64,000 nt of DNA, from positions 1 to 64,000 of the forward strand of contig JABYQR010000087.1 in assembly GCA_022592445.1 (NCBI GenBank). Direction: 5' to 3'. The position numbers and the translations under genes are program-made. The stretch is from Cytidiella melzeri (taxonomy: Eukaryota > Basidiomycota > Agaricomycetes > Polyporales > Irpicaceae). Positions 20,648 through 24,502 of the stretch are shown here, one piece after another; the stretch's first letter is position 1; every line of letters begins with the position of its first letter. Below the pieces are notes generated by a model. It saw nothing but the letters and a program-made list of their open reading frames with translations. It made no database searches and was not told where the DNA came from.

Positions 20648-23600
20648 ATGAGCGAGGAAGACTTGTCTGCTACGCTTCATCCTCTTCAGACCATTGAAGA
20701 GTACGTGTCATTCAATTTTATTGATTCCTTATGCAAGGTCATGACAGGACGTCTTGTCTTCTTATGTAGGGTCCCAAGTACTGCCACCTCCAATGCAACA
20801 TCCCCAAACCCCGCAATGCACAGCGAAGAATCGGACGAGGAAGAATTTGTATACCCTGGGACTGGAGACGGCGAAAGCGAAAGCGAATGCACAACAGCAT
20901 ATTCCTTCCATGAGCAAGCACACGAGGAGGAACCAGGAGACTCATTTGTATATCCAGGTGTACAAGAGCTCATCGAGATTCCTCACCAGGAGCACTCTGA
21001 GCTTGCAAAGAATCTCCCCACGCCGCCTTCATTCGACCCAGCATTGGAGCTTGAGCTACCCTCTGTACCGTCTGCACCACCGTCAGAGGTAGTAACTCAG
21101 CCACCTGTCACTATTATCAGGCCACCATCGTTACCACCAGCTCAAGCACCTACTCCCAAGAGCCACCCTACGCCTGCGCAGTTAGAAGCTATTCAGGCTG
21201 CTGCAGCCAACGGAGACTTGAACCAACTGCAACAGTTGTTCCGAAGCGCGTTGCAGATGGGCGAGCTGGAACCATTCGCCTTGGCCAATGACGCGTCACC
21301 GCGGACGGGTCTGACTGCGTTGCATGCTGCTGCTAGTCGTGGACATTTGGAGGTCGTAAAATGGCGTACGTTTTTGTTGTTCATTTTGCCCACGGCATCC
21401 TAACTGAAGGAATGCATACAGTCGTACAGGAGTGCGGTGCTATCCCTGATATTGAGGACAAGGAGGGAGAAGTGAGTACATTTGATCTGCATTCGAACAT
21501 GTACTCGACATATAATTCGACCCTCGTAGACTGCTCTGCATAAAGCTGCGCTCCTTGGACACCTTTCGATTGTCACGTATCTATTACCTGATCACGCAGA
21601 CGTGCAAGCTCAAGATAACGATGGATGGACCGCGCTACACAATGCCTGTTCCAAGGTATGCGTGTGATATAATGCCCTGGTCACATCTCTCATGTTTTGC
21701 AGGGTTACTTGGACATCGTTCGTTGGCTATGTGAACATGGAGGGGCTACCGCTGAATACAGCGATGCTCCTGGTGTAGACGTGAGAAGTAAAGGTGGCTG
21801 GACTCCCCTCAGTAAGTGAAATAAATTGCATTTTCCGCTGGGTGTGTCTTTCTGAGTGCTCACAGTGAACGCTGCCTCAAAGGGGCATTTACCTGTTGTA
21901 CTCTACTTATTAAGCAAGCAGTCGGCAGATCCCTTAGTTAGGAATAACTGGGGCGAAACCGCGTACGACGTCGCAGCTGCGGTATTCGAAGTTTGGATCT
22001 GCGAGGTCATTCCTGATGATATCAGCACCGCAAGTGGCTCGACTCACTTGTTCTGTAGGTCCTTCAGAAGGCCGAGGCCGAGAAATGGCGTGGCACCACA
22101 GTCCCATATAATCCCCTAGCAGTACATACCACCGTGCCCTTGATTCTTTATGAACATCAGCGCCTCGACATGCGAGTGAAAACGCTGGCTGTTTCCGGCG
22201 GATATCCAAAGTTCTCTGCGTCTGGGCTCGGTCGACGCGGAAGACGCGCTCCGTTTGAGCTCAGATTACCGTCGTCGGATGAAGAGAATGGGAAGAGGAC
22301 ACTCCCAGCGTGGCGTAGCGACGTTCACCTCCCTCTCCGTAACGAGCCATTTGCATTACCGCCCCCGGGTGCCAACATTGCAACCAGGGAAGGGGCGGAG
22401 AGGAGTCATTTTTGGTTGTACGTCGCTTTGATTCGAACCGCAATGCTGTTTCCCTGACTTGTCTCTCAGGTCCGACTGGACACTAGATGTCACGCATCCT
22501 GGAGTCGACGCTGATGAAGGTTGGCAGTATGCGCAGTCATTCGGCGAGGCCGACGATCGGTGGACTGCGGAACAGCCAGTGCAGTTGCAGCGCCTGTTGA
22601 AAGGAAGCGGTGCCCTTGCCGCTGGCTTGGGAAGCGGGAGCTCATCTCGAAGCAACGGCAGCTCGGGATCACGAGCTGGGACGCAGTCTTGGGTGAGACG
22701 CCGACGCTGGGTAAGAGTCATGCGTCGTCGATTAGACATACCGCCTCTGCCATTCACGCAGCCGGATGGCAATATGTACCACCTGGATGCCGATGGTACC
22801 ATGATACCTTACCAAGACACCGAATCTCAAGAATTTGACGGCTCTGAAGGACAGGAGCTTGGCTTTATGCCAAGTAGCGGTCTATCTGCTGCACAGGATT
22901 ATGTTGCTCGAGCGCGGTATCTCGCCGGCACGTTTAATGATGCGGAGTCGTCGCTTGATCCTCGCTCTGGTATCGAGGCTCGTCGTGCCATTGCAAAGCT
23001 TGAAAGAGCCACTGCCGAACTTAGGCAAGGCATTCTCGGTGCGTAGTGTTTTTGTGAGCGATATGCAAACTGGACTCAGCTTTTGATAGGTGATGGTGAT
23101 GCCGATAGAAAGACTCAGGCAGAGGTTTTGTTGAATGCTTATAGTAGAGACCTTGAGCGCAGGCGACTAGCTGCTGGTGCTCAAGGCTTTCTGATATCTG
23201 GCGACGGTAAGTCTATGTCTAATGCTTTATGGGGTGTGTTACAAACAGTCAACAGACGGTGATGACCTCGATGAAGATGACTCAGACGAAGAATTTTACT
23301 ATCCGGGGTCTACTCCTGGAGCCAAACCTCGTCCTCTTTCGATCAGATCAACAACTACGGACTATTTCCAAAGAGCTCCGTCTCGTGGGCCTGCTGATCT
23401 AACGCCTCAGTTGTCGCAAGCACCCGAATTCCGCGTACCCACACACGAGGCACCGCAGAAGGTTCTTAGCCCGCGATGGACACCACCCACGCCACATTCT
23501 TTACATGCCCAATGGGAACGAGATGAAACCGTCAGCACATGTCGATCATGTATGCGAAGATTCAGCTTCATCACGCGGAGAGTATGTTTTTGTCAAGTAT

Positions 23601-24502
23601 ACTTGGATACATTCACCTTGCTGACCACCTCTTCTTAGCATGTAAGCCCTACTATCAATGTGCAGTCAGGCCTAATACTGACAAGCACTTTAGCATTGTC
23701 GCCGTTGTGGACGCATCTTCTGCGATCGCTGTTCATCCTACAGGGCGCTCCTGGACCCGTCTGATATCGTGCACGATCCTTCATGGATGGAATCGTCTTC
23801 TGCTTCCACGTCTTCGCAGCGTGTCTGTCAGGCTTGTTACGAAGTGGTCACCGCCAGCGTACCGGACGGGCTACAGTTGCCAAGAACAGCCTTGATCGAG
23901 CGCATCGTGGTTGATCAAAGGCGGCTGACAGTGCAGAGTCCTACGAGTGGTCACGGTCAGACGAGCTCGCAGATTAGCGATTTGGCAGAGTCAGTTCCCA
24001 TTCATTTGTTATCCCCGTTACTTATCTGACATCGACATTACCATTACTGCTCAGCTGCCCTGTGTGTTTAGTCGACCTCAGGGACCTCGTTGGTGCTGTA
24101 GCCCAAGAGGCGCACCTGAAGAATTGTCTCGAAGGCGGAAGGGGTACATCGCCACAGACGGCAAAATATCTGGAATATGACCTTACGGAAGTGAGTGCGC
24201 TTATTGGCACAGAATGTGCGTATAGTTTCATTATGAGCTGCTTCACTGCTAAAGCGAATCACATCAGGTGTTATTTGCCTCGAGGAATTTACGAAAGGTA
24301 CGCTGTTCCTTGTACACCTTATGATTATCTTGCTGATGGTAGAGCAGGGTCTAGGGTCGCGAGGCTCAGTTGCCTGTGTGCTTTCCATGCTGGTGTGTTA
24401 CTCATGTTCTTCAAAAAACGTCCACTTCAATACTTACCGTAAACAGCGTGCCTAACCTCATGGCTGCAGCGTGGACGCAGCTGCCCTGTGCATGCCCGTT
24501 GA
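20648..24502 (+). CDS. Ankyrin-DysF-FYVE-C2HC-RING protein, putative endosomal E3 ubiquitin ligase
   Basis: Domains in order. (1) Acidic N-terminus with two FVYPG motifs. (2) Ankyrin repeats (about 21180-22000): [20 protein letters not shown], a [19 protein letters not shown] repeat, [38 protein letters not shown]. (3) A dysferlin/peroxin-like region: [23 protein letters not shown], then [15 protein letters not shown]. (4) An acidic linker with EEFYYPG. (5) [35 protein letters not shown]; the RRHHCRxCG signature binds PI3P. (6) C2HC finger CPVC..HLKNC. (7) A C-terminal [35 protein letters not shown], closest to the ZNRF type (CLC..H..C and CPxH). FYVE plus RING recalls yeast Pib1. FYVE is complete only if a 3-nt exon at 23639-23641 is included. 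The predicted role is ubiquitination on PI3P membranes (inference). It converges with the next gene, 198 bp away. Confidence 0.85.
23639..23641 (+). other. 3-nt microexon (one His codon) in the FYVE domain
   Basis: CAT lies between a canonical acceptor (CTTCTTAG) and a canonical donor (GTAAGC). The upstream intron is 23582-23638 (57 nt) and the downstream intron 23642-23693 (52 nt); each has its own CTGAC branch-point match and AG. Joining gives ACG CGG AGA-CAT-CAT TGT, i.e. TRR-H-HCRRCG. Skipping it leaves RRHCRRCG, one His short; retaining the second intron shifts the frame. Confidence 0.82.

Follow-up and report, generated by a model that had tools for sequence, protein, structure and literature searches.

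The three nucleotides CAT at positions 23639..23641 on the forward strand of the DNA analysed here (a stretch of 64,000 nucleotides, hereafter the window, from the wood-rotting fungus Cytidiella melzeri of the Irpicaceae, Polyporales, Agaricomycetes) are almost certainly a constitutive exon of a single codon. As read from the sequence, this exon would be joined to its neighbours via two ordinary short introns, giving an Upa1-like FYVE-RING protein its full RRHHCRRCG motif, in which CAT encodes the first His of RRHHCR. Hand splicing and the AG-CAY-GT read-through in relatives both place it there. It is referred to below as a microexon, being an internal coding exon of 3 nt with canonical GT-AG ends on either side.

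The coding region as a whole was spliced by hand. It occupies 20648..24502 on the forward strand, ending with the stop codon TGA at 24500-24502, and consists of 16 exons separated by 15 GT-AG introns, with an open frame of 1011 aa in which Pfam identifies ankyrin repeats, a FYVE domain and a C-terminal RING. Intron 6 (22006-22058) has an unusual donor, GTCATT. With the microexon, the protein has both the RR/RK-HHCRxCG motif and a match to Pfam FYVE (PF01363), whose score is 66.4 bits when the His is present and 56.6 bits when it is absent (cut-off 27.8), and the FYVE region aligns without gaps to FYVE chains of solved structure, EEA1 1hyi among them. The protein also has the PAM2L core DEEEFVYP, plus two weaker copies; exon 2 (20770..21365, forward strand) carries the core, from residue 44, and a weaker GDSFVYP, from residue 77. 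A looser PAM2L pattern is found in 59 of 120 relatives among the matches listed, many of these being partial models.

The ankyrin repeats, FYVE domain and C-terminal RING in one protein, together with a PAM2L core of the form [DE][DE][DE]FVYP as defined in PMC4466420, are the reason for calling the product Upa1-like, and all four are common to it and to Upa1 of Ustilago maydis (PMC4466420). Upa1 is described as an endosomal adaptor for mRNA transport that uses its FYVE domain to shuttle on endosomes; the FYVE is needed for endosomal localisation and function, and the RING was dispensable under the conditions tested in that study (PMC4466420). The function reported there was shown in U. maydis only. 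The likeness of the C. melzeri protein is one of architecture plus PAM2L core, which makes it a putative homologue. A search for MLLE domains, with the Rrm4 partner in mind, gave one place in the genome, which may be Pab1 or Rrm4. It is worth adding that the public model of the gene, P0002, has 699 aa and is marked partial, with the N-terminal part (most of the ankyrin repeats and the PAM2L motifs) absent. It does not have the microexon His (single H), and it places intron 14 differently, reading KGTLVARL where the hand-spliced model reads KGSRVARL. Relatives most often read KGSxVARL here, which favours the hand-spliced placement.

Exon 10 (23256..23581) ends in phase 0 at ...FSFITRR, and in the hand-spliced model exon 12 (23694..23989) begins after a gap of 112 nt. 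The gap divides into an upstream intron of 57 nt (23582..23638, GTATGT...TTCTTAG), the CAT, and a downstream intron of 52 nt (23642..23693, GTAAGC...CTTTAG), which lies between the two His codons. Both are GT-AG introns on the forward strand, as are all of these features, and each has a CTGAC as its predicted branch point, at 23621..23625 upstream and at 23678..23682 downstream, with 14 and 12 nt respectively following its A. The gene's remaining 13 introns measure 47-69 nt (mean 54.6), so that 57 and 52 nt are ordinary lengths and an intron of 112 nt would be an outlier. CTRAY is absent from 7 of those 13, and the two CTGAC matches are therefore good but not required. The initial annotation had divided the 112 nt at 23582-23693 into introns of 57 and 52 nt around CAT, each of normal size for the gene and each with its own CTGAC near the 3' end, and on all of these points the sequence bears it out. 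The upstream intron holds an in-frame TAG, as seen in the list of open reading frames, and its retention would end translation. The sequence TTAGCATGTAAGC is present once in the 49.7-Mb assembly.

Intron ends were scanned by pairing GT or GC donors in 23540-23640 with AG acceptors as far as 23760. The scan yields only the 112-nt intron, which leaves the frame open without a stop and shortens the motif to RRHCRRCG, and one intron with other ends was therefore rejected. The claim that RRHHCRRCG is restored only by inclusion of the 3-nt exon thus holds. Larger exons within the gap were also rejected: the in-frame candidates of 21 and 15 nt do not give a lone His, and the leftover piece is 34 or 32 nt.

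The layout of the DNA in relatives was read solely from translated ORFs in metagenomic protein sets. A short query around the FYVE matched 152 proteins, and the 120 listed were examined, these being 9 spliced sequences and 111 ORFs that leave exon 10 for other sequence, as genomic DNA would be expected to do. After RR or RK, the 111 listed ORFs continue with V (GTN) in 103 cases, HV in six and A in two. The read-through signature of AG-CAY-GT depends on the frame (A[CR]x; S[MT] and then a stop or a T-codon residue; or QHV), and CAT and CAC were the only His codons sought. Such a signature is present at 46-64 nt (median 55) in 58 of the 103 GTN ORFs among the matches listed, with CAT in 41 of them, CAC in 16 and one codon not callable. 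The other 45 listed ORFs end within 24 codons and are without it. Where a listed ORF reads for at least 26 codons the signature is found in 34 of 34, with P0258 doubtful; in 2000 shuffles of the tails of this set the mean was 5.0 and the maximum 14.

The ORFs that read for at least 43 codons also reach the exon-12 pattern, which is present in 16 of the 17 listed, all but P0258, and puts the second intron in those 16 clusters at 47-62 nt. This pattern is loose in two frames, and a shuffle control was therefore added (mean 1.1, maximum 5). Three of them, P0242, P0245 and P0301, continue directly into HCR[RK]CG. P0311 permits a second placement of exon 12, and frame-shifted 'AR' matches in P0335, P0351, P0357 and P0359 were read as exon 12 in another frame and left uncounted. 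In P0258, inspection by eye puts exon 12 only 61 nt past RR with no AG before it, and its signature match is thus probably false. P0323 and P0348 have Ala after RK, which implies a GC donor for the upstream intron, with the signature at 58 and 56 nt. The expectation that CAT flanked by AG and GT would be kept in relatives is strongly supported by this read-through.

The six HV clusters among the matches listed read RKH|GT and so lack the upstream intron. Over exon 10, one of them matches Rhizoctonia at 95% identity; the other five are nearest to Serendipita at 64-68%. The public Serendipita model P0105 is single-H, though the five ORFs nearest to it have RKH|GT, so a single H is no proof of a microexon in every species. 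Judged from the translated reading frames, the microexon is widespread, not universal; its layout is apparently common to many orders of Agaricomycetes, and it looks both old and constitutive.

Residues 760-1011, used as a query against a protein set collapsed at 90% identity, matched 255 proteins. The 120 listed were all examined, 109 of them from public genome records and 11 tagged lgn only. Among these matches, the public models comprise 71 with a single H, 25 with HH and two with QH, the rest being eight with other residues between RR and CRxCG, one broken motif and two without a recognisable core. The listed single-H models come from Polyporales, Agaricales, Boletales, Russulales, Atheliales, Hymenochaetales, Cantharellales, Auriculariales, Sebacinales, Gomphales and Hysterangiales, these being the orders to which we take the genera to belong. 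All six Ceratobasidiaceae models listed have HH, as expected where there is no upstream intron. P0032 and P0090 have RRQHCR or RKQHCR, which looks like the use of an acceptor lying three bases further upstream; the length is kept, with Gln in place of His.

The sequences tagged lgn only have HH in 11 of 11 among the matches listed. Their frames of 892-1027 aa are uninterrupted across the exon junctions, and the longest contig of P0042, P0093 and P0100 is too short to hold introns, for which reasons they look like spliced RNA. Spliced sequences on jgi contigs have HH in 5 of 5 of the FYVE-query matches listed, and the four spliced public models in that list are all single H. We infer from the uninterrupted frames that both the lgn and the jgi sequences derive from RNA. 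The nearest pairs of the matches listed include P0004 (HH) with Phanerochaete sordida P0010 (H), at 89.6% identity, P0042 (HH) with Suillus subluteus P0104 (H), at 92.7%, and P0116 (HH) with Pisolithus orientalis P0113 (H), at 82.3%. We attribute the single H in 71 of the 109 public models listed to annotation.

The genome has six places that match Pfam FYVE, and the five others are all HH. The FYVE protein L005 (contig C717) has 371 aa and a 90-nt phase-0 intron exactly between its two His codons; its public model, P0122, is identical to the hand-spliced protein, with HH. The family of L005 was used as a control, and HH is present in 117 of the best 120 of 267 matches listed, the exceptions among them being two ORFs that start just before the HCR exon and one broken model. 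On this basis, the idea that FYVE gene models are loose in general, and lose the His for that reason, was rejected.

The paralogue also bears on the history of the two introns. Both genes have an intron at H|H, in the same position, but L005/P0122 has none at RR|H and so has no microexon, unlike the Upa1-like gene. As the paralogue in the same genome has the H|H intron alone, the downstream intron is taken to be the older. The simplest history that we infer is an old H|H intron common to both FYVE families, followed by a later RR|H intron in the Upa1-like line which would have set one codon apart; the RR|H intron would then have been lost from Ceratobasidiaceae and Serendipita-like fungi, or never have been present in them. 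It is conceivable that the H|H intron was instead inserted independently at the same place in both families.

Skipping of CAT brings the second Cys of the first pair closer to the Cys of HHC, at a spacing of 11 residues instead of 12. The spacing is 12 in every one of the 116 listed control proteins that have the two Cys (of the remainder, three start inside the Cys-Cys stretch and one is without the motif). The initial annotation had assigned the two His a part in zinc geometry as well as in PI3P binding. The zinc remark was imprecise in this form, and the His residues of RRHHCR are, we assume, not zinc ligands, but skipping does alter the Cys-to-Cys spacing. In EEA1, mutations in RRHHCR impair the affinity for PI3P (PMC8491906), and the second His of HHCR is described as among the residues behind PI3P specificity (PMC3017826). 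The microexon His, and the spacing that it keeps, would be needed for PI3P binding and hence for holding the protein on endosomes. Given the EEA1 mutations and the requirement of Upa1 for its FYVE, loss of this His would most probably abolish binding to endosomes.

Introns some 50 nt long can be recognised individually, with no lower limit on exon size. The proposal that an exon of three bases challenges exon-definition models is thus weaker than claimed. Here each intron would be recognised on its own (intron definition), and because each has a normal length and its own signals, the microexon would itself need no recognition. The two introns would probably be removed one after the other, since the factors at the upstream acceptor and at the downstream donor would hardly fit together on 3 nt. 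Since the exon has exactly three bases, removal of the upstream intron leaves positions -3 to -1 of the downstream donor unchanged. Inclusion of the microexon is likely to be near-complete. Gene finders would miss it, and would accept the skipped product because RR joined directly to HCR stays in frame.

The pattern of two introns at 23582-23693 is far beyond chance. A bare AG-CAY-GT that leaves at least 45 nt on either side does arise in 218 of 50,000 dinucleotide-shuffled copies of the 112 nt (0.44%), which is the one point in favour of an accidental AG-CAY-GT in the gap, but none of the 50,000 passes once a donor of GTRNGY type and a branch point in each part are required as well. Within the window, on both strands, there are 797 GTRNGY...AG stretches of 100-125 nt, and the only one to pass is 23582-23693 itself. 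With the frame intact across 1011 aa and the layout recurring in relatives, chance or an assembly error is next to impossible as an explanation. It is also highly improbable that 23582-23693 is removed whole as one intron, with RRHCRRCG as the protein and CAT as a relic or coincidence. This is the structure implied by P0002 and by 71 of the 109 public models among the matches listed, and the frame would stay open. Against it, 112 nt is far outside the range of the other 13 introns, the relatives keep AG-CAY-GT with His codons CAT or CAC (the two sought), the transcript-like sequences have HH, and a spacing of 11 residues is found in none of the 116 listed control proteins with both Cys.

The initial annotation had further suggested a splice switch between membrane-binding and non-binding forms. 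Skipping under certain conditions would produce an in-frame FYVE short of one His and off the membranes, and so set the amount of protein on endosomes; the skipped product is indeed in frame without a stop, and a regulated microexon has been reported for Trichoderma Xlr2 (PMC11121469). In its broadest form, the one-codon exon kept across most mushroom-forming fungi would be a switch that attaches the Upa1-like adaptor to endosomal membranes or releases it, and in this way gates endosomal mRNA transport in the hyphae. Both the local and the broad form of this idea are very unlikely, and the switch found no support here: the His is present in 16 of 16 transcript-like sequences among the matches listed, both introns carry strong ordinary signals, and the sequences with one H are models taken from public genome records. 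No signs of regulated skipping were found in the relatives' protein sets, in which a minor skipped form could hide because they are collapsed at 90% identity. A constitutive one-codon exon remains the preferred reading.

Small exons are documented in other systems. Plants have conserved microexons of 1-15 nt that are pervasively misannotated (PMC8831610), and these resemble the present case in being tiny internal coding exons, clade-wide and missing from most reference annotations (PMC8831610). The present exon differs in belonging to a fungal gene whose introns are about 50 nt long and in being exactly one codon inside a FYVE motif, and it was deduced using translated DNA along with gene models instead of RNA-seq. 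The switch-like microexon of Trichoderma virens Xlr2, for which two isoforms were shown, is likewise from a filamentous fungus and likewise touches a functional protein domain (PMC11121469), whereas no skipped isoform of the FYVE gene is seen among the transcript-like sequences listed. The P450 genes of Phanerochaete chrysosporium, where the shortest exon reported is 6 bp, encoding 2 aa (PMC1184071), share with C. melzeri the order Polyporales, short introns and very short exons; here the exon is 3 bp and the gene family a different one. No description of the FYVE CAT exon was found in the listed titles and abstract openings on fungal microexons, a search whose scope excluded most subscription journals. 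A 2025 long-read annotation of Coprinopsis cinerea reportedly describes microexons, and may include this one. Among documented microexons, the FYVE CAT exon is apparently a new, unusually small and old case.

The exon offers a natural test of the minimum size of a constitutive exon where introns are short and recognised singly. With 71 of the 109 listed models short of one residue of RRHHCR, structure predictions, domain searches and constructs based on such models would start from the wrong protein. The read-through approach, in which translated intron DNA in metagenomic protein sets is examined, could reveal similar exons without RNA. If the gene is indeed a homologue of Upa1, the annotation fault sits in the very domain that places an mRNA transport adaptor on endosomes.
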